Positions 31,444 through 62,888 of a stretch of 64,000 bases of DNA are shown piece by piece. The notes under the pieces are model-generated. The model was given only the letters and a program-made list of their open reading frames with translations. It was not told where the DNA came from and made no database searches. This stretch comes from an uncultured Eubacteriales bacterium. Lineage in GTDB: Bacteria > Bacillota > Clostridia > Peptostreptococcales > Anaerovoracaceae. Numbering within the stretch: position 1 is the stretch's first letter; each line of letters opens with the position of its first letter. Made by a program: the position numbers and the translations under genes. Where the stretch lies: assembly GCA_902786815.1 (NCBI GenBank), contig CADADV010000010.1:25203-89202 (forward strand), written 5' to 3'.

Positions 31444-34400
31444 TCACTTGACCGTGATTTTGATGGTCTTATGTACGCCGTTATGGGCATAAACGTAGAT
31501 CCTGCAGGTGCCTTTGGCCTTGGCAGTGATCTTGCCGGCTCTGCTGACAGTCGCAACTTTCTTGTTATCGCTGATGTAACGCAGCGTCGGTACGTGGGTT
31601 GCCGGCATGAGTTTCTTGCTCTTCTTCACCTTCGTGACCTTGGCCTTGATCCTGAAGGTCTTTCCTTTCTTGAGGGTGAACTTCTTCTTGTTCACTGTCA
31701 GGGTCTTGGCGTTGCTGTACTTTTTGGAAGCCCCGGAGGTGTAGGAGTGTGTCAGCGGGCTGGTTTTAATGTATTTCTTCTTGCCGCTTTTCACAGTGTA
31801 GGCCTTGACGTACGCCTTGTATGCTGTCTTTTTCTTCAGACCCGTCTTGGTCCATTTCAGGGTCTTGCCCGCTTTGACGGTCTTGACCTTCTTCATTCCT
31901 TTCGTACCTTCCTTACCGTCGCACCGCGCGAGGAAGATGTCATAGCCCTTCGCGCCCTTGACTTTGTTCCAGGAGATGACTATGCCCTTCTTGCCTTTGG
32001 CTGTCACTTTGGCGATCAGCACGCCGGTCTGCTTTGCTTTTGGTTTTGGTTTTGCCTCAGCCTTCCACTTCGCGTAGATATTCGTGTCCTTTGTGATCTC
32101 CTGATTGAAATCAAAGGTCTTTGTCAATCCCTTGTCCGCATACCATCCCTTGAACACATATCCTTTGCGGGTCGGGGCCTTCGGCTTCTGTGCTTTCTGG
32201 TGGATTGGCACGATCTGCTTGTCAACACCGGTGCCGCCATTGTCCACGAAGGTGACCGTGAACTGTTTGATTTTCCATAGAACCGCATAGTCTCTGTCCC
32301 CGGTGGAGCCTTCCTCGACCGTGACCTCCTTCGCAGGCTGTTTCAGATCGGTCCCCACCCAGCCGGTGAATTCGTGGTCCTCTTTCTCCGGAGCGTTCAG
32401 CTTGAAGGTGGGAGTCGCTGCTGTGTATTCTGTCGGATTGTCTTTCCCGGATGGCAGCGTACCACCAGCCAGGTCGTAATCGATAGCGTACTTCTCCATA
32501 TCCCACTGGGCGTAGAGGGTGACAGTGTAGCCTTGTTCCTTGGTCAGGTTCTTGACGGACTGCTTATCTGTAATCGCATCGCCGCTTCCGTCCTTCTTCG
32601 TGTTCCAACCAGTGAATGTTCCGCCGGTGCGTTTGAACCGGTTTGCGAACAGATTCTGCGGCTGATCATAGACCATATACTGGTCTGCCATCGTTCCGGT
32701 CACATTGTTTCCGTTCGGATCGTACTTCACGGTGTAAACATTGGCCGCAGCATGGGCCGTGATTTTCGCTTCGCCGCAGACAGGCAGTTCGCTCTGGTCC
32801 GCCTCCTGAGGATCGAATGTCACGAACCCGTCCGGCGGCACTCCGGTCACGGAATACCCGTCGAAGTGATAACCGAGTTCTGCGGCTGCCGAGACATTGA
32901 TCTTTGCACCCACAGGTATATGGATGAGTTCCGTCGGTCCCGTCGGCTGGGTCGTTCCGCCAGACGGGCTGACCCAGGCGTTCGCGATATGTTCTTCCTT
33001 AACTATGGTCACCGTGTAATAATCAAGATTGATGGAAACGGGTTTACCCTTGAAGGTGAATTCCTGTTTGTCCGCCGGGATCACATATTCATCGCTGTCC
33101 ATGGTGAGATGATACGTACCGTTGTTGAGCCCTTCCAAGCCGATCGCATATGTTCCTTTAGAGTCGCTTTTGCTGACCATTCTGTCTGTTTCTGCAATAT
33201 GGAATCCCATATTCTCTCCCTGCTGCCAGGGCACGTCGAATCTCTTACCGTTTTCCTTTGTGGCTATAGTCAGCTTTACTTCAGTAATGAATTCCGCATC
33301 CAACGTCCAGGGTTCGATCTTCCATCCGTTTTCGGTTTGGCTCAGCGTACACAAGTTGAAGACCTGCGCGCCGTCAGCATAGAAGTTTCCGAACTGGACA
33401 CTCCTGTTCCATCCATGGAACACCGCTTTTTCAGGGAGTTCCCATCCTTCTTCCTGCACGAGGGAAGCGAACGTAGGCAATGTATCGCTCTGATCAAAAG
33501 TCATTTCCATTGTATATGTTGTGTCTGACGTACCGTCATTGTGTTTTTCCCTTAAAACAACATCGTACGGCAGCGCCTCCCACTGAGCGTAGAGGGTGAC
33601 CTCCCGAAGATCGACCGGTGCAAGGTCCTTCACATCCCGGGCAATATTCTCATAGTCCGTTCCTCTCCCATCGGCTCTGGTGTTCCATCCTTTGAACCGG
33701 TAGCCCGGCAGGACGAACTGACAGGCAGGAAGGTTGAATGACTGATCATAGTATTCCGTCAATTCATTCATGTGTCCGCTGACCGTCTTGGACGCGCCGC
33801 GGGGTCGGTTCCCGTCGAACTTCACTTTGTAACTATAACCCTGCGTCTTGCAGTACAGTGTCGGCGCAGGATCACTTCCGGTGTAGTTCCATCTGCCGCC
33901 TTCATCTGTGTAACCTGCTACGTTCATCTCTAGGTTCCCGTTTTCATCTGCAATCTTCGTTCCACCATGCAAATAATAGCCTTCGGGAAATGTTCCGGGA
34001 TGCAGATTTGGATTGATATCAAACAGATGGTTTTCTCCCGGAATAGCGACCGCGGATCCTGCCTCCGCCGTTGTGTCGCTTAATAATCGCAGTTTGAGAT
34101 CCATGCCCGGTATCAATTCACGTTCCAGTTTGGCATCTCCGTCAGCATCTCCATCCTTGAACGAGAGGTCACCGTAATATTTGGTTTTCTTCACACTTGT
34201 CGCACTGACCGTTTCCAACATGCCTTGGGTCCATCCTGATGCCTTGCCGGAAATCCACGGATAAAACATCCCGGTATGCTTATCTGAATCGATATCGAGC
34301 AGATATACATCCTTCACTCCATAATCCATCCTTTGTCCGATGTTCAGATCCTTGATCGCGTAACCGCTGCCGTCTTTTGGAATGGATTTGAAGGTTACAT

Positions 34401-35721
34401 CTAACCTGTGTACGTTTTCACCGTCATCGTTCACGACAGTTCCTGAAATGTGATCTGTATAAATGGAACCGCCGGTGATGACTGTCTTTGCATCGCCAGG
34501 TCCTCCAATACCGGAATCAGCATCCGAACCGCCCTTCGCAACGATCGTTCCTCCGCTGATCTCAGTATAGGCATAGTTCTCCCCCGGTGGGTCATACGCA
34601 CCTTGACCTGAACGCTTCCCTGCGCCTATAGCGGGAGATGTCCATCCGGCTTCTGCCGTAATGGACCCTCCGCTGATTTTTACTTCACCTGTTCGTGGTT
34701 TTTCGCTGCTGCCGGTTCCGCATCCGATTGCCGGACCTGGTCCGAGATTTGTTGCCGTAACAGATCCGCCGTTGATCTGAATGTTCTGAGCGCCGCCATT
34801 GCTGCCGCTTCCGATCGTCGCCGCTCCTCTACCGCTTTTGGCTATTACAGTTCCCCCGTTGATGATGATATTCTTGGCAGTAACCGATGTATCCCAGTGA
34901 GGAGGTTGTGTGCCGCCTCCAATTGCGACTCCTTTTAGATTTTCCGCATATACTGTGCCTCCATTGATGATGATTCCGTCTGCAACACCCTGCACTCCAC
35001 TTCCTATTGCGGCAGCATCATATTCGGATGTATAGGCTTTGATGTTCCCGCCGTTGATCGTAATATCCTCGACATCACAATTCTTTCCGCTGCCAATTCC
35101 TGCTGCGCCGTTGACCCCTTTGGCAATGATGTTACCGCTATTGAACGTGAGGTTTCCTATTGTATTCTTGTAGTCGCTGTCATAGTATACACACCCTATG
35201 CCGGCGGACATAATCCCGGCCCGTGCGGTAATGGTTCCCGGCCGTGTCACGTCTTCCGTTTCAAAAACCACTTCTGACTTTGTTCCCTCTTTCCGGATCG
35301 CGGGGCACATGTAGCCTTCCAAATACACGTCCGCATCTCTCTTGGAAATGATCTTGCACGTGCCATCAAACTCATCGACCCAGATGGGTGCCGTGCGCGA
35401 GCCCGTATATGATGTTGCGCCGCAGTTGAGGTTCAATCCGTCCGCAAGATATACGTTTGTCCCGGCACTTTGTATGAGGACACGGACGTGCGTGCTTTTG
35501 CCTTTCAATGTGTAGTTACCCGGTTTTTTGATAAAGACCGTGGTGTTTGCTTTTGCCTTACTGACATCGTAGGTGTCGCCCGGCTTCATGTTCACCGTAT
35601 GCCAAATCAACGCGTCTGCGTGGACCTGCTCTGCGCCCGCGAGTCCTGCTGCCGCGAACACAAGCAAAAGCAATACCGGCAGTAACTGCAGCCTGATTTT
35701 GTTCCTGAACATCGTTTTCAT
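31444..35721 (-). CDS. Large cell-surface protein with beta-helix, InlB-type and Ig-like repeats
   Basis: 1425 residues with a signal peptide (about 1-36) preceded by AAGGGAG. Residues about 60-450 hold repeated INGG-x-I/V-x-A...AIGSG units, a carbohydrate-binding-like beta-helix. From about 620 on there are four Listeria-Bacteroides (InlB B-type) repeats, recognised by FKGWNTRADG, FTGWNTKKDG, FTGWVG and FKGWYADKG plus LYAQW/IYAKW ends. A Lys-rich fibronectin-III-like module (about 1240-1320) and a C-terminal BIG2-like Ig domain (KKVATVSRAGKITAKAKGT) follow. There is no LPXTG sorting signal; the very basic C-terminus may bind wall polymers. An adhesin or matrix role is inferred. The neighbouring sigma factor gene could control it. 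Confidence 0.85.
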   Translation of the reverse strand: MKTMFRNKIRLQLLPVLLLLVFAAAGLAGAEQVHADALIWHTVNMKPGDTYDVSKAKANTTVFIKKPGNYTLKGKSTHVRVLIQSAGTNVYLADGLNLNCGATSYTGSRTAPIWVDEFDGTCKIISKRDADVYLEGYMCPAIRKEGTKSEVVFETEDVTRPGTITARAGIMSAGIGCVYYDSDYKNTIGNLTFNSGNIIAKGVNGAAGIGSGKNCDVEDITINGGNIKAYTSEYDAAAIGSGVQGVADGIIINGGTVYAENLKGVAIGGGTQPPHWDTSVTAKNIIINGGTVIAKSGRGAATIGSGSNGGAQNIQINGGSVTATNLGPGPAIGCGTGSSEKPRTGEVKISGGSITAEAGWTSPAIGAGKRSGQGAYDPPGENYAYTEISGGTIVAKGGSDADSGIGGPGDAKTVITGGSIYTDHISGTVVNDDGENVHRLDVTFKSIPKDGSGYAIKDLNIGQRMDYGVKDVYLLDIDSDKHTGMFYPWISGKASGWTQGMLETVSATSVKKTKYYGDLSFKDGDADGDAKLERELIPGMDLKLRLLSDTTAEAGSAVAIPGENHLFDINPNLHPGTFPEGYYLHGGTKIADENGNLEMNVAGYTDEGGRWNYTGSDPAPTLYCKTQGYSYKVKFDGNRPRGASKTVSGHMNELTEYYDQSFNLPACQFVLPGYRFKGWNTRADGRGTDYENIARDVKDLAPVDLREVTLYAQWEALPYDVVLREKHNDGTSDTTYTMEMTFDQSDTLPTFASLVQEEGWELPEKAVFHGWNRSVQFGNFYADGAQVFNLCTLSQTENGWKIEPWTLDAEFITEVKLTIATKENGKRFDVPWQQGENMGFHIAETDRMVSKSDSKGTYAIGLEGLNNGTYHLTMDSDEYVIPADKQEFTFKGKPVSINLDYYTVTIVKEEHIANAWVSPSGGTTQPTGPTELIHIPVGAKINVSAAAELGYHFDGYSVTGVPPDGFVTFDPQEADQSELPVCGEAKITAHAAANVYTVKYDPNGNNVTGTMADQYMVYDQPQNLFANRFKRTGGTFTGWNTKKDGSGDAITDKQSVKNLTKEQGYTVTLYAQWDMEKYAIDYDLAGGTLPSGKDNPTEYTAATPTFKLNAPEKEDHEFTGWVGTDLKQPAKEVTVEEGSTGDRDYAVLWKIKQFTVTFVDNGGTGVDKQIVPIHQKAQKPKAPTRKGYVFKGWYADKGLTKTFDFNQEITKDTNIYAKWKAEAKPKPKAKQTGVLIAKVTAKGKKGIVISWNKVKGAKGYDIFLARCDGKEGTKGMKKVKTVKAGKTLKWTKTGLKKKTAYKAYVKAYTVKSGKKKYIKTSPLTHSYTSGASKKYSNAKTLTVNKKKFTLKKGKTFRIKAKVTKVKKSKKLMPATHVPTLRYISDNKKVATVSRAGKITAKAKGTCRIYVYAHNGVHKTIKITVK

Positions 35722-36422: not shown

Positions 36423-36737
36423 TTTGCTTTTCCCCCCGACATCATCTTCTCTGCGTCATTGCTTTATTGCTTGAAAGCTTTTCTGCTTTAATAGAAAAGC
36501 AATTCCCGTGCCATTTCCTCTATATACCCGTAATTTTGCTGTGGACCCTTGGGAAACTCACCCTTGCCGCGTACAAATGCGTTTCCTTTCAGTGTATTTT
36601 CACTGCATTTCGAACCGCATTCGGTTCAATTTGCAAATAAGCCGATTCAATTTCAGTTCATATAGAAAAAACCGCCGATTAGCCATATAATCGGAGGATT
36701 TTTGCTGTGTTTCAGGGTCATATTCCCGTGAAAACGG
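36423..36737. other. Intergenic region with palindromes upstream of the sigma factor gene
   Basis: No gene was seen in these 315 bp. The region has a hairpin GCTTTTCT/AGAAAAGC (36477-36500), a perfect palindrome GAACCG-CATT-CGGTTC (36612-36627) that may be an operator, and the terminator at 36666-36703. Confidence 0.5.
36666..36703 (-). terminator. Terminator of the PrsW operon
   Basis: AAAATCCTCCGATTA...TAATCGGCGGTTTTTT stem on the minus strand, 35 nt after the PrsW-like gene. Confidence 0.85.
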
Positions 36738-49484: not shown

Positions 49485-50861
49485 TTACATACTCAACAGC
49501 TCGCGCACGCGTTTCTGGATGATTTTCTCCAGGGCTCTCGTTCTCCAGCTCGGCAGATTGCAGACATCACTCTCTTTGAACGTGAAGTTGATCAGTTTCC
49601 GGAGCTGCTCTTTCTGGAGCGGGCCCATGACCCTGGCTGCGAGCTCCATATGTTGATTTCCCCAGCCATAAGGGTTGCTTCTTGTCTTGATGTACTCGTC
49701 GATATCTTTAAAATCATCCTGCATGGCGTAGCAAAGGAGCGATAGTCCGTTGTCGAAGACCGGCGCCGGGGATATGATTTCTCCGCTATGATTGTCCCGG
49801 AGCACGCCGAAGTTCCCGAAATGCCTGTCTTCATTCAGGATGACTGCATCAAAGACCAGCATACTGGCCAGTTCCTGATAGAACGCGTCGCCACGCTCCT
49901 TATAGAACTCGATACAGGCATCGATGCCGCCGGTCCGTACGATCCGCCCAATCGGGATGTATGCAGTGTCGATATCTGTGAACAGTTTGCATTTGGATGC
50001 CAGAACGCCCTTCCAGTTTTCCAGCTCATACTGCACAGCATGCAACCCCATTCTCTCTGCAATCTGGCTGGCATAGAATTCCGAGTACGGCTCGTTGCCT
50101 GCGTTGGCATAATCGAATGTGCCGCCCTTGTAGAGCCAGATGCCTTTGCTCCTTGAAAACCGCCAGCCCTTTCGCAGCATGCCGCCTGTCGTAAGTTCCG
50201 GTGATGTTCGGAATTTGCTCGTGTCGTACTTCCAACCAGTGTAGGCAATGAGGGATAAGGCTTCTGTAAACCGGTTTTCATACAGGTTGTATTCTTTGAA
50301 GGTCCCCTCAAAGCCCTTTTGCGGAGTCCAGTAACTGTCGTTAAGAGACAACCCCATACATACATCGATGATGCCCTTCAGGCTGTTGACATCCAGCCCC
50401 AGGGAACCCAGTATCTTTCCCACCAGTTCCCGATTTGCCGGTATTATTCTATGCCCCAGCCACTTCAGCATCCCGTCATCATCCAGTTTCAAGTCCAGCG
50501 GCAGCAGATGACGCCGATCCTCATTGATCCACAGGATTTCCGCATGCAGCATATACTCGGTGTACAGCCGGAACCGCAGAAGTTCCTCATCGTAAAGTTT
50601 CAGGCTGTACTCCGTGTCGTCCCCGTAATCGAACCCTGGTTCTTCCAGTGCGAACTTCGCTTCTTTGCCCAGCGCCTCCGCGATGGCCTGGATATAGTCG
50701 ACGCTGATGTTCTGCCGTCCGTTTTCGATGCGCGAGATATTGGACTTCTGCGTCCCGACCCGCTGCGCCAGTTCCTCCTGGCTGATCTGCGCAAACAGCC
50801 GCTCAACCGCCAGCTGTTTGGCGATCTTCGTTCTGAGCCTCGTCTTGTCGTTCTGTTTCAT
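49485..50861 (-). CDS. HipB-HipA fusion: XRE helix-turn-helix plus HipA-like kinase
   Basis: 458 residues. The N-terminal 65 residues are an XRE-type helix-turn-helix (ISQEELAQRVGTQKSNISRIENGRQ). The rest is a HipA-like Ser/Thr kinase: GWRFSRSKGIWLYKGG may be the nucleotide site, catalytic loop VILNEDRHFGNFGVL and metal loop APVFDNGLSLL. In HipBA modules the repressor-antitoxin and the kinase-toxin are usually separate proteins; here they are one chain. Ribosome site AGAGGAGG. Several HipB-like palindromes precede the gene. Confidence 0.87.
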   Translation of the reverse strand: MKQNDKTRLRTKIAKQLAVERLFAQISQEELAQRVGTQKSNISRIENGRQNISVDYIQAIAEALGKEAKFALEEPGFDYGDDTEYSLKLYDEELLRFRLYTEYMLHAEILWINEDRRHLLPLDLKLDDDGMLKWLGHRIIPANRELVGKILGSLGLDVNSLKGIIDVCMGLSLNDSYWTPQKGFEGTFKEYNLYENRFTEALSLIAYTGWKYDTSKFRTSPELTTGGMLRKGWRFSRSKGIWLYKGGTFDYANAGNEPYSEFYASQIAERMGLHAVQYELENWKGVLASKCKLFTDIDTAYIPIGRIVRTGGIDACIEFYKERGDAFYQELASMLVFDAVILNEDRHFGNFGVLRDNHSGEIISPAPVFDNGLSLLCYAMQDDFKDIDEYIKTRSNPYGWGNQHMELAARVMGPLQKEQLRKLINFTFKESDVCNLPSWRTRALEKIIQKRVRELLSM

Positions 50862-54131: not shown

Positions 54132-54193
54132 TATTGTTTCCCCCGTTCAATCTAATTGCGTTCAATTTGTGTTTTATTATACCACAAAAAAGA

Positions 54194-54226
54194 AAAACCC
54201 GGAGATCAGTGTGAACTCTGGGTTTT
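54194..54226 (-). terminator. Terminator of the sigma-54-controlled operon
   Basis: AAAACCCAGAG...CTCCGGGTTTTTC stem on the minus strand about 45 nt after the SDR stop codon. Confidence 0.8.
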
Positions 54227-54272
54227 CTGTGTGATTTGCAATACCGATTTTTGTATTCAAATCATATTCAAA

Positions 54273-55043
54273 CTATTTTTCGAGACTTTTCAGCACGGCG
54301 TCAATCAGCTGCTCCGCCGGACCTGCTTTCAGGCCGCCGTCGATATAGATGTCTTCGCCGGTGATATATCTGCAGTCATCGGACGCCAGGAAGTGATACA
54401 GCGCAGCTGCTTCCTTCGGGTCGCACATACGTGCCAGCGGTGTCTGGATCTTCATGCAGTTCAGTTCCGTCTCACAGCCGTCCGCATAAGCCATCGGCGT
54501 ATCCATTGTGTTCGGACAGATGCAGTTGACTCTGATGTTTCTCGGAGCAAGTTCTATCGAGGCCACTTTGGTAAGACCGACAATAGAGATTTTGCTCATG
54601 ATATAAGGTCCGTATCCTGAGTAATCTCCGTTCGCGGAGTTAGATGCTGTATTAAGAATCGTTCCCCCGTCATTCATATATTTCTGTCCGTACTTTATGC
54701 CGAAGACAACACCCATAACGTTGATATGGAACAATGCTTCATAGGTCTTCTGATCAGCATCCTCCAGTCTTTCCTCAGGACAGATGATACCTGCATTGTT
54801 TACAACGATATCGAGTTTTCCGTATCTTTCGGCGGCTGTTTTCATAAGGTTCTCAACAGCTTCCTCTTTGCTGACATCAGTCTGGATGAAATCAGCGCCG
54901 ATTTCATTAGCCAGGTTGGTGCAGTCCTTGATATCCGCCATGATAACATCTGCGCCGGCTGCTTTGAATCTCTTGGCTGTTTCCAGACCCAGTCCCTGTG
55001 ATGCACCTGTAACTACAGCTACTTTTCCTGTAAGATCGAACAT
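54273..55043 (-). CDS. Short-chain dehydrogenase/reductase (SDR)
   Basis: 256 residues, classical SDR. NAD-binding TGASQGLGLETA (12-23), NNAGI (about 87), catalytic Ser region NTASNSANGDYSGYGPYIMSKIS with Y-x-x-x-K, and CPNTMDTPM after beta-6. Probably oxidises or reduces a hydroxy compound. It is last in the leftward operon that also encodes the amidohydrolase, the GcvP-like pair and the AcoX-like protein. Substrate unknown. Confidence 0.9.
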   Translation of the reverse strand: MFDLTGKVAVVTGASQGLGLETAKRFKAAGADVIMADIKDCTNLANEIGADFIQTDVSKEEAVENLMKTAAERYGKLDIVVNNAGIICPEERLEDADQKTYEALFHINVMGVVFGIKYGQKYMNDGGTILNTASNSANGDYSGYGPYIMSKISIVGLTKVASIELAPRNIRVNCICPNTMDTPMAYADGCETELNCMKIQTPLARMCDPKEAAALYHFLASDDCRYITGEDIYIDGGLKAGPAEQLIDAVLKSLEK

Positions 55044-55063
55044 TTTATACCTCCCTGTCAGTT

Positions 55064-56191
55064 TTAACAGCTTACTTTATAGACCATTGTTTTCCCTTGT
55101 GCGGTTTTGACCATCTTGTATCCGCAGAGAGCCCGGTTTACGTCTTCGACACCCGTGTCGACAAGAAGAGGTTTACCCTCCAATGCAATCATCTTGCTTT
55201 CGGTCGCAATAACAGTGATGTTTTTGAATCCTGCTGCTTCGAGCACTTCCGCACTGAGCTGCTGATTTCCACGGCCGAAGATATACCCTTGCCCGCCGAT
55301 AACTGTGACAATGATATGGGCCTTTCCCCTCGCTTCCCCGTGCAAAAGTTCCAGCAGCTTCTGTTCGTTTGCGTCTGACATTACGAGCCGACGGTCTTTG
55401 ACGACATCGACGCCCAGCAAAGTTGCCGGAAGCCCCAGCATCTCCAGTATGCCGCGCGGCGTACTCCCCGGTCCGATGATATAATACTCACCGGATTTCA
55501 TGTTGGAGATTACATCCGAAGCGATAGATTGGATGGTGGCTTTCTCCGACATGGAACTACCTGCCTTTGCGCACTGAAGCAACCTGCGTTCGAACGGCAC
55601 TTTCATGTATCCATACAGGCGCGCTGAAACTCTGTCGTTGCGAAATTCATCTTCGTCGATATCCATGACTTCCATTTCGCGAAGCTGTGTGCTTCCTCCT
55701 CCGTTGAGATACATATCTGCCGCCTCGCCAGCGTGAATAGGGGAAGAACCATATACACCTGAGTGGATTTTGACTCCCGCAGGTATTCCGAGAACCGGTA
55801 GGTCAGTGCCGATGACACTGCAGACATCTCTCGCAGTGCCATCGCCGCCTGCAAACATCAGCAGATCTACACCTCGCTCCATCAAGACCTGCGCGGCCTT
55901 TTTCGTGTCCTCAGCACTGGTTCTGTCTGTGGAGATCCCTTCAATGATTTCCGGATCATATCCGGCTTCCCGGGCTTCCTCTTCTCCCATGCTCCCGGGA
56001 CACGTTATGATATGGACTTCATGACCGCATTCTTTCATACGCTTCAGTGAGCGAACAACCTTGCCGGGAGCTTCCTGAACAGCCCCAAGCGAGAATGCAA
56101 GCATGCGAATCTCTTCCCCGTCGCTTCCTTTAAGTCCGACTCTTCCGCCTATGCCCGCCATGGGATTTACAATCAATCCAAGCTGTTTCAC
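55064..56191 (-). CDS. ATP-NAD kinase-fold protein, AcoX-like
   Basis: 375 residues. The N-terminal LGLIVNPMAGIGGRVGLKG and LLMFAGGDGTARDVCSVI (GGDGT) motifs are those of NAD and diacylglycerol kinases, and the total length matches the AcoX group found in acetoin-degradation operons. The function of AcoX is not established. Here it sits 20 nt before the SDR gene, which may need its cofactor product (NADP). Confidence 0.85.
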   Translation of the reverse strand: MKQLGLIVNPMAGIGGRVGLKGSDGEEIRMLAFSLGAVQEAPGKVVRSLKRMKECGHEVHIITCPGSMGEEEAREAGYDPEIIEGISTDRTSAEDTKKAAQVLMERGVDLLMFAGGDGTARDVCSVIGTDLPVLGIPAGVKIHSGVYGSSPIHAGEAADMYLNGGGSTQLREMEVMDIDEDEFRNDRVSARLYGYMKVPFERRLLQCAKAGSSMSEKATIQSIASDVISNMKSGEYYIIGPGSTPRGILEMLGLPATLLGVDVVKDRRLVMSDANEQKLLELLHGEARGKAHIIVTVIGGQGYIFGRGNQQLSAEVLEAAGFKNITVIATESKMIALEGKPLLVDTGVEDVNRALCGYKMVKTAQGKTMVYKVSC

Positions 56192-56200
56192 CTAAAACTC

Positions 56201-57760
56201 CTATTTATTATTCTTGCGTTTGTAAGCCTGCCATGTGGATGCCCATTTGCTTTCGTCATCAACAATGCTGGTGTCTGTCATCTTGCCGATTGGCTGCGCA
56301 TATGGTGCTCCCAGCGTGAATTCCGGATCTTCCCAGGCCTCTTCGATGGCCTGCTTCATAGCTGCTGCCCAGTAGTCCAGATCCTCCTTCGAATATGTTT
56401 CGCATGGCTCCGGTGTGAATGGCTCCGGAACGATCCATGGGTGATGACTCATCCAATAGCTCTGAACGCCGAAGTCAACCAGTCTTGACCTGATATCATC
56501 TGTTCCTACTCCGGTCGCTTGTGTCAGTTCATCCATAGAATACCTGACCTGCTCGAATCTGAATCCGTCAGCGTACGGTCTGGTTACACCTTTAATCTGC
56601 TGGAGCAGCTTGTCCAGATAATTGTTGTTGAGTACAGAAGTCTCTGCCGTCAGTTTCAACCCGTCCGGACCCATCGTTCGGATCCAGGCATACGCCTTAA
56701 GCATGCACTCCGGATTTCCAATGTAACTTCTTACCTTGCCCAGTGACTTAGGTCTGTTGTAGTCCAGATAATAGCCGCTTTCTCCTTTCTCGACGGTTGG
56801 CGTAGGAATAAAGTCAGCAAGTTCTTCCCTTACGCAGTATGCTCCTGAAGCCGGTCCCTCGCAACCGTGCGGTGCCGAGAATGTTTTGTGCAAATTGAAA
56901 TGGCATGCGTCAAATCCCGCGTCGAATGCTCTGGCGATGCCCAGAATACCATTCGCATTCGCCTGATCGTAGAAGCAAAGTCCCCCGACACTGTGGATCA
57001 GTTCAACGTATTCTGCAACATCCGGGTTATAAATACCTGTATCCTCAGGGTTCGTGAACATGATTCCTGCGATTCGCTCACCGTATTCCTCAACCAGTGC
57101 CTTCAGAGCGTTCAGGTCAGGATAGCCGCTTTCGTCTGGCATCAGCGTCGCCACCTGGAATCCGGCCGTTGCCGGCGTAGCGCCATCACAGGGGTGTGAG
57201 AAGATTGTCGTAATGACGATGTCCTTCTTATCCAGATTTCCATGTGCCCGGTGATATTCTCTGATAGTACAGGCATTTGTATATGTCGCGTGCGAACCAC
57301 CGCCTGGCTGGAATGAGATTTTGTACATCCCGGATACTTCCTTCAGGTACTGTTCCAGATTGTATATAATCTCCAGGATGCCCTGGATGTCTTCAACCGG
57401 TTGGTTCGGGTGAACGTCTGCTAGTTTCGTGTGATTTGCCATCTGATCATGAAGCTTAGGGCTATACTTCATAGTGCAGGTTCCCTCGCCTATGTCTGAC
57501 GCCAAATCCATACCCATAGTCTCTTGTGAAAGTCTGAGCCAGTGCTGGAGCACATGGTACTGATCCAGTTCAGGAAGCTTCGGCGCGGTTTTTCTCCTGA
57601 TTCCTGCCGGAATCAGTGAATCAGCGTTGCCTACTGCGTCGGTTACTTCACTCGGTGAGAGTGGCGGCAGCAATCCTCTTGTTCCCGGAACGCCCTGTTC
57701 CATGATGAAAGGCTCGTCCCATTTCGCTGCGTGGTATCTTCTAAGTTTAACGTCACTCAT
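56201..57760 (-). CDS. Atypical GcvPB-like PLP protein (glycine decarboxylase P-protein subunit 2 homologue)
   Basis: 519 residues. The fold and length follow GcvPB, and the PLP lysine is retained in HFNLHKTFSAPHG near residue 296. Several conserved parts of real P-proteins differ: the glycine-rich PHGGGGPG becomes PHGCEGP, AHGTNPA becomes SHPCDGATPA, the TNPNTLG region becomes TNPEDTG and YYDGANLN becomes FYDQANAN. It is 1 nt from the GcvPA-like gene. No gcvT or gcvH is in the operon. A PLP-dependent decarboxylase or lyase with a new substrate is the best inference. Confidence 0.82.
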   Translation of the reverse strand: MSDVKLRRYHAAKWDEPFIMEQGVPGTRGLLPPLSPSEVTDAVGNADSLIPAGIRRKTAPKLPELDQYHVLQHWLRLSQETMGMDLASDIGEGTCTMKYSPKLHDQMANHTKLADVHPNQPVEDIQGILEIIYNLEQYLKEVSGMYKISFQPGGGSHATYTNACTIREYHRAHGNLDKKDIVITTIFSHPCDGATPATAGFQVATLMPDESGYPDLNALKALVEEYGERIAGIMFTNPEDTGIYNPDVAEYVELIHSVGGLCFYDQANANGILGIARAFDAGFDACHFNLHKTFSAPHGCEGPASGAYCVREELADFIPTPTVEKGESGYYLDYNRPKSLGKVRSYIGNPECMLKAYAWIRTMGPDGLKLTAETSVLNNNYLDKLLQQIKGVTRPYADGFRFEQVRYSMDELTQATGVGTDDIRSRLVDFGVQSYWMSHHPWIVPEPFTPEPCETYSKEDLDYWAAAMKQAIEEAWEDPEFTLGAPYAQPIGKMTDTSIVDDESKWASTWQAYKRKNNK

Positions 57761-57761
57761 C

Positions 57762-59159
57762 CTAACATACCTCCTTTAATGCATCAACAAGGGTTTTAAC
57801 ATCATCCACTGTGATTACTTCAGTGAAGCAGTACAGAGCGCTCTGTCCAAGTTCAGGGTACTGCTTGCTCAAATCGATACCGCCGTAGATCTTCTTGGCA
57901 GTCAGCGCTTTGTTGATTTCCTCAACGGTTTTCCCAGTCTTGTCAAAATTCACAACGAACTCCTTGAACGTGCTGTCGAACTTCGTTTCGACGCCCGGCA
58001 CTTCATCAAGCAATTTCTTCGCATAGTTCGCATTCTGAACCATCGTTTCACCAATCTCCTGCATGCCTTGCGGTCCCATCAGTGACATGTATACGGCAGC
58101 TGCGATCGTCCAGAGACCGGAAGCTGTGCCTACCCAGTCTTTGCCCTTATCCCTTGCCTCATAGGAGGTTCTTTCAGGAAGCATCTCTGCATATCCGAAC
58201 TGGCCGTCGACAGTTTCTACCAATGTGTAGAATGCCAGCGGACATTCGCCTACGAATCTTTCTTCATCTTTCATAGCGATGAATCCGGACTGTCCGCCGC
58301 CGCAGTACATGTGTACGCCCAGTGACTGCAGATCGCCGCAGATGATGTCTGCACCATAGTTTCCCGGAGCTTCCAGAACGCCCAATGAAATAGGATCGAC
58401 GCCGACGACAGCGACCGCACCGGCTTCATGCGCCGCCGCGCAAATCGCTGCAGGATCGTCTTCGATGACGCCGAAGTACCCCGGAACCTCGAAGTAAACG
58501 CCTGCTGTCTTCTCACTCAATTTGCTTTTCAGATCATCCATATCCATTCTGCCTGTCTTCTCGTCATAAGCTACAGGGATCACATGGACACTGTTTGACA
58601 TTTCTTCCGGCTGACACTGCGTTTTAATGACGGCCAGTCTGTCAGGTGACATCTGTGCAGGAATAAGTACTTCATTTCTGCCGGTGACCCTTGACGCCAT
58701 TCTAAGCGAAAAACCGGCTGCAGTCGCCCAATCATAAATAGGCTCACTGACCGCTTCAACACCAAGCATCTCACCCATCATAGAATAGAATTCGAATCTG
58801 GCCTGGAACTTACCAAAGTCAGAATACGTGCCTCCACAGTATGCTGTGACGAATTCCGCTCTGTTCACTACTTCATCTACGACAGCCGGAACGTAATGCT
58901 GCCAGCATCCGCCGCCTAAGAAACTAAGGTATTCCTTGCACGTAACATTCTTGTTGAGAATCTTTTCCAGATGGCTTCTCATCTCTGCCTCCGATCTGAT
59001 TGGTTCAGGCAGATCCAGCCTTCTGCGAAATCTCAACTTCTCGGGAATCCAAGCGTAGATTTCCTCCGTATCTTTGATTCCAACGAAATCCATCATTTCC
59101 TTTCTTACTTCGGGAACAGAATTTGGAATATACGGATGAATGAACGGTTTGTTAGTCAT
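57762..59159 (-). CDS. Atypical GcvPA-like PLP protein (P-protein subunit 1 homologue)
   Basis: 465 residues from the ATG at 59157-59159 with AAAGGAG upstream. It has the GcvPA N-terminus (IPNSVPEVRKEMMDFVG) and the FLGGGCWQHYVPAVVDEVV block (FLGAGxYxHYxPAVV in normal GcvPA), but TPYQPEISQG is replaced by CGGTYSDFGKF and MYDGATA by IYDWATA. The PLP cofactor binds the other subunit in this family; this one shapes the active site. Changes fall in the same places as in its partner, so both subunits seem to have shifted together to another substrate. Confidence 0.82.
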   Translation of the reverse strand: MTNKPFIHPYIPNSVPEVRKEMMDFVGIKDTEEIYAWIPEKLRFRRRLDLPEPIRSEAEMRSHLEKILNKNVTCKEYLSFLGGGCWQHYVPAVVDEVVNRAEFVTAYCGGTYSDFGKFQARFEFYSMMGEMLGVEAVSEPIYDWATAAGFSLRMASRVTGRNEVLIPAQMSPDRLAVIKTQCQPEEMSNSVHVIPVAYDEKTGRMDMDDLKSKLSEKTAGVYFEVPGYFGVIEDDPAAICAAAHEAGAVAVVGVDPISLGVLEAPGNYGADIICGDLQSLGVHMYCGGGQSGFIAMKDEERFVGECPLAFYTLVETVDGQFGYAEMLPERTSYEARDKGKDWVGTASGLWTIAAAVYMSLMGPQGMQEIGETMVQNANYAKKLLDEVPGVETKFDSTFKEFVVNFDKTGKTVEEINKALTAKKIYGGIDLSKQYPELGQSALYCFTEVITVDDVKTLVDALKEVC

Positions 59160-59206
59160 ACATATCTCCTTTCTTTTTTGCAAATACAGTTCATAAGTTG
59201 ACTACA

Positions 59207-60829
59207 TTAATATTTTTGATAAACGATCTTTCCATCCATGATCGTGTAATCAACGGTGACATCTTTTACTTCTTCCGGCGGCATTGCCAGAATGTTCTTC
59301 GACATAATCACGACATCTGCCAATTTGCCTGTTTCCAGTGTCCCCAGATCACCTTCTCTGTGCATCGAATAAGCAGAGCCGTACGTGTATCCGATCAGGC
59401 CTTCTCTGACAGTAAGCTTTTGCGTTGGATTCCAGCCGCCTTCCGGCAGCCCGTCGTCATGCAGCCTCGTCACTGCTCTGCAGATCTGGGGGAACGGATT
59501 CATTCCCATGACCGGACAGTCTGTTCCGTATGAGACGACGCCCGCTGAAGTCAGAAGATCCCGGAAAGGCCATGTTTTGGCAGCCCTTTCTTCTCCCAGT
59601 CTGACTCTGTATGGATCGTCATCAAAGGTTTCTGTAGTAGCGATCGCATCCGGCTGAATGCTTGGAATGATGTGGTATTTCCCCAACTGTGCCACATCTT
59701 CCGGCGCTGCCAGTTCGCAGTGTTCAATGCAGTGTCTGCACTCGTTCATGCCGTAAGTTTTGATTGCATCGCGATACCATTCAAAAGCTTTTCGGAAGGA
59801 ACCGTCACCACAGGAATGGAGCTTTACGGAAAGCCCTCTGCGGTGTGCCTCGCCGATTTTTTTACCTATAGCGTCCAAATCGTAAAGTATTCTGCCTTTG
59901 TTGCCCGGATCGTCAGCATAATCTTCCAAAAGCAGGCCGGTGTATGCCGATGGGACACCATCCACAAATTGCTTTACCATATCTACATGGATCTTCTCGG
60001 ATCGATATTTGCGGTCAAGCTCAAGTACTTCGTCCAGATCCCCCAAAAGATCCGGCGCGACAGTAACACGTACGGTCAGCTCTCCTGATTCAGTCATTTC
60101 GTTATATACATCTACATGACCCATATTCCCGTGGAAAAAAGGCTGCACGTCCGTAATAGCTGTTACCCCATATGAATTGGCATACCTGGAGAATATCCGG
60201 AGGATATCTTTTTCCCGTTCTTTCGAAAATTCCATTGCCTGAATGGTCACGAGACCCATCGCCGACTCATGCAGGATTCCTGTGGGTTCTCCATTCTCAT
60301 CTCGTTCAATGCGCCCTCCATCCGGATCCGGGGTGTCTTTCGTGATTCCGCACAGCTCCAGCGCTTTAGAATTGACCCAGCATCCGTGTGCTTCCCAATT
60401 CAACAGGAAAACAGGTCTGTCGGGGAACACGGAATCAAGGCTTTTCTTCGTTGGAAGATCTTTTTTCTCCCAGAAATAGTGATACCAGGAAAAACCGTAG
60501 ATCCACCCTTCCGTTTCGCCAAGTTCTTCCGTCCTCTTCTGAACAATTTGCACGGTTTCTTCTTCACTCCGAGCATCCAGCAGGTTCGCATACTTCTCAA
60601 ACAATCCCGCCATAAGCATATGAACGTGGCTGTCGATGAAGCCTGCGCTGACCAGTCGATCACCCGCATCGATCCAGAGTGTATCCATTCCAAAAGCATC
60701 CCTCTTAGGAAAACCGCGATTCACTTCTGCGATCCTGTTGCCATTGATAACAACAAAACCCTGATAGGGTTCTTCTGAAATACCGTCGAAAATAGCATTT
60801 CCAAAAATAATCATGTCAGCTTGATGCAT
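59207..60829 (-). CDS. Amidohydrolase, YtcJ-like
   Basis: 540 residues from the ATG at 60827-60829 with AAAGGAG 8 nt upstream; the TTG at 60847 lies ahead of that site. Amidohydrolase 3 family marks: VSAGFIDSHVHMLMAGLFE (HxH), the KQFVDGVPSAYTG region carrying a metal ligand, LSVKLHSCGDGS, HCIEHCELAAPED and the final VSYGTDCPVMGMNPF (Asp). Members cleave N-acyl, formyl or cyclic amide bonds. It is the first gene of the sigma-54 operon, so it probably produces the substrate of the GcvP-like pair. Confidence 0.9.
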   Translation of the reverse strand: MHQADMIIFGNAIFDGISEEPYQGFVVINGNRIAEVNRGFPKRDAFGMDTLWIDAGDRLVSAGFIDSHVHMLMAGLFEKYANLLDARSEEETVQIVQKRTEELGETEGWIYGFSWYHYFWEKKDLPTKKSLDSVFPDRPVFLLNWEAHGCWVNSKALELCGITKDTPDPDGGRIERDENGEPTGILHESAMGLVTIQAMEFSKEREKDILRIFSRYANSYGVTAITDVQPFFHGNMGHVDVYNEMTESGELTVRVTVAPDLLGDLDEVLELDRKYRSEKIHVDMVKQFVDGVPSAYTGLLLEDYADDPGNKGRILYDLDAIGKKIGEAHRRGLSVKLHSCGDGSFRKAFEWYRDAIKTYGMNECRHCIEHCELAAPEDVAQLGKYHIIPSIQPDAIATTETFDDDPYRVRLGEERAAKTWPFRDLLTSAGVVSYGTDCPVMGMNPFPQICRAVTRLHDDGLPEGGWNPTQKLTVREGLIGYTYGSAYSMHREGDLGTLETGKLADVVIMSKNILAMPPEEVKDVTVDYTIMDGKIVYQKY

Positions 60830-60878
60830 ACATGTAACTCCTTTCAAATCATGTTTTCAATCTTCACCAGTTTAATAT

Positions 60879-60894
60879 AGCAATTAGTGTGCCA
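60879..60894 (-). promoter_or_regulatory. Sigma-54 promoter of the amidohydrolase operon
   Basis: On the minus strand TGGCAC-ACTAA-TTGCT matches the sigma-54 consensus TGGCAC-N5-TTGCW exactly, with the GG and GC pairs at -24 and -12. Transcription should start near 60867, about 40 nt before the amidohydrolase ATG. Confidence 0.9.
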
Positions 60895-61051: not shown

Positions 61052-61084
61052 TGAATTGTCTATACTGACAATTCATGCTATACT
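61052..61084 (+). promoter_or_regulatory. Promoter of the sigma-54 activator gene with palindrome
   Basis: TTGTCT (61056-61061) and TATACT (61079-61084) with a 17-bp spacer. A perfect inverted repeat TGAATTGTC-TATACT-GACAATTCA (61052-61075) covers the -35 box and spacer, so the gene is probably repressed, perhaps by its own product or another regulator. Confidence 0.75.
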
Positions 61085-61127: not shown

Positions 61128-62888
61128 ATGTATGAGCTGACACTAATTAAGGATACCGTTGGTCAAGTCGCCGATGCGATTGCTGCAATTCTGGAAATGG
61201 AAACGGAAATCGTCGATCATAATCTGCAGATTGTAAGTGGTACCGGTCGCTTCCGCAGGAAAATCGGCGCCTATGAAGAAGGAGGGGATCTGGACTCGCC
61301 TTTGATCTATGGAAAAGTGCTGCGAAGCGGCATAGACTATATCTGTCTTGATGCTCCGAATGACCCCATTTATCGGCCGGAGGAAAATGAACTCGCCGAG
61401 ATTTGCTGTCCCATCCTTGTCGGCAGTGAGGTCGCCGGTCTGATCGGACTTGTCGCTTTTACAACTGAACAGCAGGAAAAGATGGTTGCGCGTGCTAATA
61501 TTTATCTGAACTTTCTCAGAGAAATGTCCATGCTTATTTCCGGAAAACTAGTTGAGAACCAAAGCAGCACCAAACTCTCAATGCTTTTGGAATCCATGCC
61601 GGAGGGGTTGATTGCCAGCGGAACAGATGGAAAAATCTTCTACTGCAACTTCTCAAGCGAGCTGCTTCTGGAAAAACATCGAACAGAAATCATCGGATCA
61701 AAGCTGACGGAGGTATTCCCGAACGATGATCGGTTTTCTTTGCTCAATCCGCAAGACATGTTTTCAAGTTACGAATACATGCTTCCGCTTCCTTCAGGAA
61801 CAAAGCACTTCCTGATTACATCAGTGCCGATTGCCCACCTTGGAACGATGTATCTGTTCTTCGACTCCTTGCGTGCCGGATTGTTCCCTTCGAGTGAATA
61901 CAATGATAACCGAATCTTCTTTTCTGATATTTTTGGACACAGTGAATCTATTCTGGAAGCAAAAAAATTCGCAAGCCAGATTTCAAACAGCAACAGCACT
62001 GTCCTGATTACCGGGGAAAGCGGTACAGGCAAGGAGCTGTTCGCACGGGCAATTCACAATAACAGCTCGCGCAGTGAAGCGCCTTTCGTATCGATCAACT
62101 GCGGTGCGATTCCTGAAACATTGCTGGAAAGCGAACTGTTCGGATATGAAAAAGGTTCCTTTACAGGCGCCAGCACATCAGGAAAAATCGGTAAATTTGA
62201 ACTGGCGAACCATGGTACTCTCTTTCTGGATGAAATCGGAGATATGCCGTTCCATCTTCAGGTAAAACTGCTTCATTTTCTGCAGTATCGTACTGTAGAA
62301 CGTATCGGCAGCACAAAGCCTATTCCTGTCGATGTCCGCATCATTGCGGCAACTAATAAATCGCTGGAAAGCATGATTGAAAACAATGAGTTTCGTGAGG
62401 ACCTCTATTTCAGACTCAATGTTCTTTCTCTTGATATTCCTCCTTTGCGGGAACGCGACGGGGATCTGGAAGTCCTCCTGAACAACCTGCTTCGCAAATT
62501 CAACGGCATTCTCGGAAAAAATGTATCCGGGTTCTCGCAGAATGCGGTCGATATCCTGAAGAAGTATAATTGGCCGGGAAATGTGCGTGAATTGGAGAAC
62601 ACGATCGAGTACTGCGTGAACATAACGACAGCAGACTACATTACGCCTGAAGATTTGCCTAAACGTATCATTGAAAATGTAAATCCAAAAGGAACAATTA
62701 CGCTTTCCTCCCCTGAAGGAGAAGATCGCTCCCTGAAAGCGCAGCTAAGAGCAGCAGAAAAGGCCATTCTGCAGAAGACTTTAGCGGAAACAGGTTCAAC
62801 GCTGGAAGGCAAGCGGACCGCCGCCGGGATTCTGGGGATCAGCGAATCCACACTGTACCGCAGGCTGCGGGAATTCGATCTGCTCTGA
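61128..62888 (+). CDS. Sigma-54 enhancer-binding regulator with PAS domain
   Basis: 586 residues from the ATG at 61128 with GGAGGAGG upstream. An N-terminal sensor region (1-150, GAF-like) and a PAS domain (about 165-275) are followed by the AAA+ domain (about 285-510): Walker A GESGTGKELFARAIHN, the sigma-54 contact loop GSFTGA (Ser replaces the usual Ala of GAFTGA), Walker B GTLFLDEIGDMP and RDLxxRLN-like YFRLNVLSLDIPPLRER. A Fis-type helix-turn-helix (EGKRTAAGILGISESTLYRRLREF) ends it. Divergent from the amidohydrolase operon, whose sigma-54 promoter it should activate in response to a metabolite. Confidence 0.93.
   Translation: MYELTLIKDTVGQVADAIAAILEMETEIVDHNLQIVSGTGRFRRKIGAYEEGGDLDSPLIYGKVLRSGIDYICLDAPNDPIYRPEENELAEICCPILVGSEVAGLIGLVAFTTEQQEKMVARANIYLNFLREMSMLISGKLVENQSSTKLSMLLESMPEGLIASGTDGKIFYCNFSSELLLEKHRTEIIGSKLTEVFPNDDRFSLLNPQDMFSSYEYMLPLPSGTKHFLITSVPIAHLGTMYLFFDSLRAGLFPSSEYNDNRIFFSDIFGHSESILEAKKFASQISNSNSTVLITGESGTGKELFARAIHNNSSRSEAPFVSINCGAIPETLLESELFGYEKGSFTGASTSGKIGKFELANHGTLFLDEIGDMPFHLQVKLLHFLQYRTVERIGSTKPIPVDVRIIAATNKSLESMIENNEFREDLYFRLNVLSLDIPPLRERDGDLEVLLNNLLRKFNGILGKNVSGFSQNAVDILKKYNWPGNVRELENTIEYCVNITTADYITPEDLPKRIIENVNPKGTITLSSPEGEDRSLKAQLRAAEKAILQKTLAETGSTLEGKRTAAGILGISESTLYRRLREFDLL

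Follow-up and report, generated by a model that had tools for sequence, protein, structure and literature searches.

The window analysed here is a stretch of 64,000 nucleotides from contig CADADV010000010.1 of an uncultured Eubacteriales bacterium. Between positions 54273 and 60847 it carries five genes on the minus strand, which encode an amidohydrolase, two relatives of the subunits of the glycine decarboxylase P-protein, an AcoX-like protein and a short-chain dehydrogenase/reductase (SDR). The GcvPA-like subunit is termed PA' and the GcvPB-like subunit PB'; gene families were assigned with Pfam and NCBIfam, and AcoX-like is a presumptive name for a protein with NAD_kinase and DAGK domains. 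The intergenic gaps measure 23, 1, 9 and 20 bp, and this spacing of 1-23 bp, together with the shared strand and the family matches, confirms the five-gene leftward unit described in the initial annotation. Locus, genome and contig numbers (L, G and C) are our own. The features of the region are:

59207..60829, minus strand: Amidohydro_3 (YtcJ-like) amidohydrolase, first gene of the operon (Pfam PF07969, E 1.4e-87)
57762..59159, minus strand: PA', GcvPA-like subunit (Pfam GDC-P), without TPYQxEISQG and with REQHIRRxKASSNIC altered
56201..57760, minus strand: PB', GcvPB-like subunit, with K292 (the pyridoxal phosphate (PLP) lysine), D265 and H189 kept
55064..56191, minus strand: AcoX-like protein with Pfam NAD_kinase and DAGK domains and a GGDGT motif
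54273..55043, minus strand: SDR of the downstream type, 64-66% identical to the SDR after AcoX in L041 and L052
54195..54225, minus strand: terminator-like hairpin with a T run directly after the SDR gene, read from the sequence
60880..60894, minus strand: sigma-54 (-24/-12) promoter TGGCACACTAATTGC, an exact match, with similar elements upstream of related cassettes
61052..61075, no strand assigned: perfect 9-bp inverted repeat with a 6-bp spacer, about 160 bp upstream of the -24 element
61128..62888, plus strand: divergent sigma-54-dependent activator with PAS, AAA+ and Fis-type helix-turn-helix domains (Pfam PF00158, E 4.6e-72)

The true starts are likely to be the ATG codons at 60829 (amidohydrolase), 59159 (PA') and 61128 (activator), each of which is preceded by a stretch resembling a ribosome-binding site. 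The fold of 54178-54240, which contains the hairpin after the SDR gene, has a z value of -3.5; the hairpin is absent from the terminator list of a consensus scan. By sequence, the solved structures nearest to the amidohydrolase are the uncharacterised hydrolases 3igh and 3icj.

Judging from the sequence, the operon is under sigma-54 control, as it combines an exact -24/-12 match with a divergent activator of the sigma-54 type, and sigma-54 (rpoN) is encoded in the same genome; the consensus promoter and the PAS-type activator had both been recognised in the initial annotation. The case for the promoter lies in the position and conservation of the element and not in the number of matches, which at up to one mismatch is not above chance in the window (4 against 4.8 expected). 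A strict match is present in 13 of the 31 upstream regions compared, namely those of the window, 11 family loci and 19 named loci, the named loci being taken from the 80 best matches, many of which are metagenome bins. Three of the named loci duplicate family loci, so that 11 of 28 distinct regions carry the element (10 of 27 if the window is left out); among random 560-bp segments from the same loci, not matched in base composition to promoter regions, the share is 1.05%. In 64 named loci the sequence extends more than 3 kb ahead of the PA' start, and 16 of these encode a homologue of the activator no more than three genes upstream of PA'. The inverted repeat at 61052..61075 is a candidate binding site for the activator. 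It overlaps a sigma-70-like promoter match of the activator gene, which is weak because the scan returned 11 such matches where 8.5 were expected. A second exact sigma-54-type match, TGGCACGGGAATTGC, lies at 36499-36513 on the minus strand, about 0.8 kb from the start of the repeat-protein gene at 31444-35721, and may be due to chance.

A divergent relative of the P-protein

PA'PB' is certainly kin to the P-protein; it does not belong to glycine decarboxylase proper, because the defining motifs are lost and both subunits fall on separate branches of their trees. Motifs were counted over dereplicated members, comprising 96 PA' and 86 PB' sequences of the new type. At most three of the ten residues of TPYQAEISQG are kept in all 96 PA' sequences, whereas all 23 canonical sequences keep at least seven. 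Other residues take the place of E313, Q314, S323, N324 and C326 in REQHIRRxKASSNIC in every one of the 96 new sequences, whereas the 24 canonical ones retain all five. The arginine of the PGR stretch, R291, is kept in 53 of the 96. In PB', all 86 new and all 23 canonical sequences share K292, D265 and H189, and further residues are fixed that set the pair apart. R401, R406, E239, D240 and H439 occur in 86 of 86 new sequences where the canonical ones mostly have C, V, N, T and Y; R406, E239, D240 and H439 are found in none of the 23 canonical sequences and R401 in two. In addition E403 (79 of 86, with D in 7) and Q404 (84 of 86, with E in 2) replace the canonical H and E. The stretches that differ from the canonical subunit are thus E239-D240, Q266, R401-x-E403-Q404-x-R406 and S438-H439-H440.

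The four motif changes quoted in the initial annotation (PHGGGGPG to PHGCEGP, AHGTN to SHPCDG, YQPEISQG to TYSDFGKF and YDGAT to YDWAT) are present in the translations. Its statement that the context of the PLP lysine is kept in both subunits holds for PB' and fails for PA', as this lysine occurs only in PB', which is also the arrangement in canonical two-subunit P-proteins. The lost motifs presumably serve the glycine or the lipoyl arm. A tunnel by which the lipoylated H-protein reaches the active site of the P-protein has been described (PMC7259800). The predicted PB' model finds its best fold matches among P-protein structures, followed by sphingosine-1-phosphate lyase, cysteine desulfurases and group II decarboxylases. 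Outside its core the model is poor (pLDDT confidence score 74.6), probably because the partner chain is absent.

In trees computed with a quick method and rooted at the midpoint, the PA' sequences of bacteria and archaea gather on a single branch with strong support, and so do those of PB'. The new rows fall on one side of a branch with an approximate likelihood ratio support (SH-aLRT) of 97-100 in the PA' tree (47 new and 24 canonical rows) and with a support of 100 in the PB' tree (46 new and 23 canonical rows). A single row from a Bathyarchaeal genome, labelled as new by its best match in the PA' tree, is to be counted as canonical, as it carries the TPYQPEISQG motif. The distances within PA' correlate with those within PB' (r 0.87 over 74 loci and 0.90 over 75 loci). 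The view of an atypical pair, inherited jointly and set on a deep branch of its own together with AcoX, is upheld, and with it the distance from the glycine decarboxylase of the genome, as PA' of the window is only 32% identical to the canonical PA of its own genome.

This canonical PA is encoded on contig C8, where gcvT, gcvH, gcvPA, gcvPB and lpd lie together; gcvT, gcvH and lpd were not found in the 64-kb window by tblastn, in agreement with the initial annotation. A second PA'/PB'/AcoX set, 48-51% identical to that of the window, is present on contig C1 (L007, 7580-17063). Its neighbours, judged by eye and from their resemblance to modelled genes of other loci, are a hydrolase that looks like a beta-lactamase fold, a DUF819-looking membrane protein and a CoA-transferase-like gene (CoA, coenzyme A). 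Because the same genome holds both the complete gcvT-H-PA-PB-lpd set and this second trio, PA'/PB' is not the glycine decarboxylase of this organism.

PA' occurs in 18 of 197 family genomes, with 24 matches at an identity of at least 42%, including three fragments; below these, no listed match exceeds 36%. The scores are likewise bimodal in 398 genomes of the phylum of the window (presumably Bacillota), with 27 genomes at 520 bits or more and the next at 393; these 27 are referred to below as PA' genomes. The named members among the best 80 matches belong to Bacillota, Chloroflexota, Aminicenantes, Desulfobacterales, Actinomycetota, Heimdall-, Hodar-, Njord- and Bathyarchaeota and others. A canonical-type PA, 40-49% identical to the canonical PA of the window's genome, is present in all 20 named PA' genomes tested of the 80 loci, that of G598 being broken by a stop. 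The Pfam GCV_H model scores above its cut-off in 23 of the 27 PA' genomes, in 21 of them with at least 120 bits. The gcvH of G515 and G263 consists of fragments only (22.6 and 24.1 bits), and no match was obtained in G220, G439, G480 and G514. Six of the 27 are thus without gcvH once the fragments are discounted. Completeness is 92% or more for G515, G263, G220 and G439, of which G220 shows 7% contamination, and it is 61% for G480 and 72% for G514.

These distributions bear on whether PA'PB' could be an ordinary glycine decarboxylase isoenzyme that borrows the H-, T- and L-proteins of the main system. Such an isoenzyme would account for NCBIfam equivalog scores above the cut-off and for the cassettes that lie near a gcv locus in five genomes, where in two cases another gcvH follows AcoX at a distance of 4-5 kb. 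Set against it are the 32% identity to the own PA, the loss of motifs in every new row, the separate branch and the six genomes without gcvH, four of them at least 92% complete. The borrowing of H-protein is made unlikely by these genomes and by the motif loss, and the isoenzyme is the least probable of the explanations considered here. Overall, PA'PB' is very probably not a glycine decarboxylase in the usual sense.

Partner genes and genomic neighbourhood

The usual partners of PA'/PB' are AcoX and an SDR. AcoX is a contiguous neighbour on the same strand in 51 and an SDR in 57 of 79 named loci, both counts being lower bounds owing to contig ends. Full-length AcoX (at least 440 bits) is found in 23 of the 398 phylum genomes, 22 of which have PA' (Fisher p 2e-30, uncorrected for kinship); if a partial match of 124 bits in G256 is included, 22 of 24 AcoX genomes have PA'. 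The AlphaFold model of AcoX (pLDDT 89.8) has no good whole-chain match among the 50 Protein Data Bank (PDB) rows listed and shows local likeness to NADH kinase and diacylglycerol kinase. Pfam NAD_kinase domains are matched, and the sole NCBIfam match is a weak one to diacylglycerol kinase. AcoX appears to be a frequent helper of PA'PB' with a predicted nucleotide-binding, kinase-like fold. Its tight link to the pair, along with the shared fold and two-subunit architecture, would suit an enzyme that decarboxylates oxidatively and passes the aminoalkyl group to an acceptor other than H-protein, either a different thiol or one handled by AcoX and the SDR. No gcvH homologue was found among open reading frames of at least 90 amino acids in 20 family and 80 named loci with the gcvH of the window's genome as query, a search in which other types of carrier were not looked for, and a reaction of this kind is considered improbable.

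The SDRs encoded directly upstream of PA', a commoner companion than the amidohydrolase and one that the initial annotation had missed, are for the most part a single group (median pairwise identity 59% over 40 loci, 10-90% range 34-68%), and their distances track those of PA' (r 0.82, with 0 of 999 permutations as high). The downstream SDRs are heterogeneous, with a median identity of 36% over 13 loci.

The amidohydrolase is a minority partner. A gene of the Amidohydro_3 type is found in the contiguous operon of three of the 79 named loci and one of the 20 family loci (L049), in addition to the window. The operon of the nearest named relative, L057 (PA' 94% identical), begins at PA' without it, and in G068, of the same genus, a 58% homologue resides on a contig other than that of PA'. 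The amidohydrolase is accordingly rejected as the defining partner and as a companion across the whole branch. The initial annotation had made it the core first step of a pathway: it would open an amide, either N-acyl or cyclic, and the amine so freed would be decarboxylated or cleaved by the PLP pair. The gene is indeed first in the operon, 23 bp from PA', and L049, L080, L101 and L134 have comparable genes in their cassettes; with 76 of the 79 named operons (some cut by contig ends) and the nearest relative lacking it, this pathway is doubtful.

Several neighbourhoods connect the cassette to glycine metabolism. Of the 21 PA' genomes in which gcvH is genuine, five have the cassette within about 11 kb of it (G407, G293, G382, G287 and G490), beside gcvT-H-PA-PB and, in four of the five, lpd. 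The five represent three families (G407, G293 and G382; G287; G490) and the 21 represent 16; three of 16 near gcvH corresponds to a p of about 0.0009 if a rough chance of 1.2% is allowed to each. In G073 and G007, whose PA' are close relatives of that of the window, the cassette is followed by genes for protein-B subunits of a reductase of the glycine/sarcosine type, and these are the only protein-B genes above the cut-off found there. A protein-B selenoprotein gene lies 13 kb from the cassette in G094 and on a contig other than that of PA' in G143 and G022; none was found in G000, G068 and G190. Two loci, L090 and L103, encode upstream of PA' a zinc dehydrogenase whose nearest NCBIfam model is threonine 3-dehydrogenase, and L071 has one in the vicinity. 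A succinate-type CoA-transferase and a protein with the N-terminal domain of methylmalonyl-CoA mutase are further products of L090, and CoA-transferase-like genes occur in L103 and L007. Near the gcv loci of G407, G293, G287 and G382 (L171, L172, L173 and L175), two radical-S-adenosylmethionine-looking proteins and one lipoate-ligase-looking protein were seen close to lpd, which we take to resemble alternative lipoyl synthases. Open reading frames resembling gcvT lie near the cassettes of L111 (12758-13376, 44% over 197 amino acids) and L055 (367-3051, 37% over 401 amino acids).

In a Pfam scan of 52 of 131 operon neighbours the families met most often were Na+/H+ antiporters with six members, amino-acid permeases with five and, with three each, major facilitator superfamily proteins, DUF436 proteins and ATP-binding cassette (ABC) permeases, and a carbamoylase-type amidase is encoded near the L045 cassette. 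DUF436 (TIGR01440) genes are found near the PA'/PB'/AcoX cassettes of L108, L111, L131, L171, L172, L174 and L183; the L171 copy was confirmed by NCBIfam, three of the 52 scanned neighbours matched and the rest were recognised by eye. An ornithine-racemase-like gene stands beside the cassette in L123 (457.7 bits against a cut-off of 480), and a lysine 2,3-aminomutase above its cut-off adjoins that of L074, with a gene of similar appearance, by eye, near that of L080. Ornithine or lysine fermentation was set aside as the substrate pathway, as L123 and L074 are single cases.

Elsewhere in the window, 31444-35721 on the minus strand encodes a large secreted-looking protein of 1425 amino acids with a match to a Listeria-Bacteroides repeat domain and beta-helix repeats. 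A 458-amino-acid protein (49485-50861, minus strand) has an N-terminal helix-turn-helix and a remainder that is HipA-like by eye; it is possibly a fused HipBA-type protein, the HipA part having no Pfam match at 1e-10.

Proposed reaction and relation to known systems

It is proposed that the operon is an amino-acid catabolic module with PA'PB' at its core that yields glycine by cleavage of a carbon-carbon bond, a reading to which we give a probability of roughly one in three. The SDR would oxidise a beta-hydroxy-alpha-amino acid, or a similar vicinal amino alcohol, to an amino ketone, a step that in some lineages may be taken by the threonine-dehydrogenase-like zinc enzyme. PA'PB' would bind the amino ketone as a PLP aldimine and cleave it in the manner of 2-amino-3-ketobutyrate CoA ligase (Kbl), releasing the acyl group, probably as acyl-CoA, and the glycine-PLP carbanion left behind would be protonated to glycine, which could then pass to the glycine cleavage system or to glycine reductase. 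The P-protein also forms a PLP-stabilised carbanion, and because of this only the leaving group and the acceptor would change. That this retro-Claisen step is indeed performed by PA'PB' is tentative and somewhat less probable than the module as a whole. The amino acid itself would be set free from a cyclic or N-acyl precursor by the amidohydrolase, a part that other hydrolases would play near the cassettes of relatives. Stated in full, and a little less probable again, PA'PB' would represent a heteromeric family of PLP-dependent carbon-carbon lyases of the glycine decarboxylase lineage, independent of H-protein and working with an SDR and AcoX. The family would convert beta-hydroxy amino acids, threonine-like and with a substrate that depends on the paralogue, to glycine and acyl-CoA in bacteria, Asgard archaea and Bathyarchaeota, while being filed as glycine dehydrogenase.

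Simple decarboxylation is a serious rival. Here PA'PB' would convert another amino acid or an N-substituted glycine to an amine and CO2 without H-protein, which fits a PLP site that is kept while the P-protein motifs are lost, the six of 27 PA' genomes without true gcvH and the group II decarboxylases among the fold neighbours of the PB' model. It leaves unexplained the co-inherited upstream SDR and the variants with zinc dehydrogenase and CoA-transferase, and it is judged possible at slightly lower odds than the proposed lyase family. Cleavage to glycine is favoured because a dehydrogenase accompanies the pair and because the cassette is linked to systems that consume glycine.

Several observations weigh against cleavage to glycine. 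Both subunits of the window pass the NCBIfam equivalog cut-offs, PA' with 450.5 against 364 (GcvPA) and PB' with 510.1 against 441 (GcvPB). The window operon has no upstream SDR, only a downstream one; elsewhere in its genome the closest match to the upstream SDR of L041 is 45% identical and lies on contig C12, and the NCBIfam matches of the SDRs bear generic names only. AcoX is absent from five of the 27 PA' genomes. No protein-B selenoprotein was found in the genome of the window or in two genomes of the same genus, the zinc dehydrogenases stay below the threonine-dehydrogenase cut-offs (best 245-256 bits against 380 or 458) and CoA-transferase-like genes occur in only two of the 79 named operons. 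In Paenibacillus the genes that precede PA'/PB' are those of a sugar-type ABC transporter and a GH2 glycosidase, a setting that cleavage to glycine explains poorly. Finally, a Kbl-family match of at least 300 bits is present in 12 of the 27 PA' genomes, one of them above the cut-off; PA'PB' is therefore not a simple replacement of Kbl, an idea that was rejected as no clear pattern emerged across these genomes.

No description of a PA'/PB'-type pair with AcoX or an SDR was found in the titles and abstract openings of the open-licence papers searched, and the family is apparently widespread and undescribed. Databases probably misname the pair, because both subunits of the window pass the glycine dehydrogenase cut-offs. 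It is present in 27 of 398 phylum genomes as well as in archaea and many other phyla, and any metabolic model that assigns glycine cleavage to it would then be in error. Missing amino-acid reactions may be hidden here. A possible example is Thermacetogenium phaeum, which is reported to grow on threonine without an identified threonine aldolase or threonine dehydrogenase (PMC12674515). With the cassette, AcoX gains a partner with which it can be tested.

Among known systems the closest is canonical GcvPA/GcvPB (PDB 1wyt, Thermus thermophilus), which likewise consists of two homologous fold type I subunits and shares the lysine, aspartate and histidine of PB; the PB' model aligns to 1wyt_B with Foldseek TM scores of 0.75 (query) and 0.82 (target). 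PA'/PB' differs in being about 32% identical to the subunits of its own genome, in an operon without gcvH, gcvT and lpd, in the absence of TPYQxEISQG and SNIC from PA' and in the gain of invariant arginines in PB'. Like the Stickland operons Prd and Grd, the window operon is associated with sigma-54 control and an AAA+ activator whose best NCBIfam match is PrdR; it departs from Prd in a PrdR score of 416, below the cut-off of 795, and from Grd in the lack of a protein-B selenoprotein in its genome. AcoX occurs in acetoin operons, where a protein of kinase-like fold similarly stands beside a carbon-carbon-cleaving enzyme and an alcohol dehydrogenase, and to which the AcoX-like protein here is presumably related; acetoin dehydrogenase uses thiamine and not PLP, in contrast to PA'PB'. 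The nearest analogy in reaction is that of Kbl and L-threonine dehydrogenase, which likewise pair a PLP enzyme with an alcohol dehydrogenase and whose products would be those proposed here, glycine and acyl-CoA. Kbl is a single-chain alpha-oxoamine synthase of another family, whereas PA'PB' has two subunits and its reaction is a proposal.

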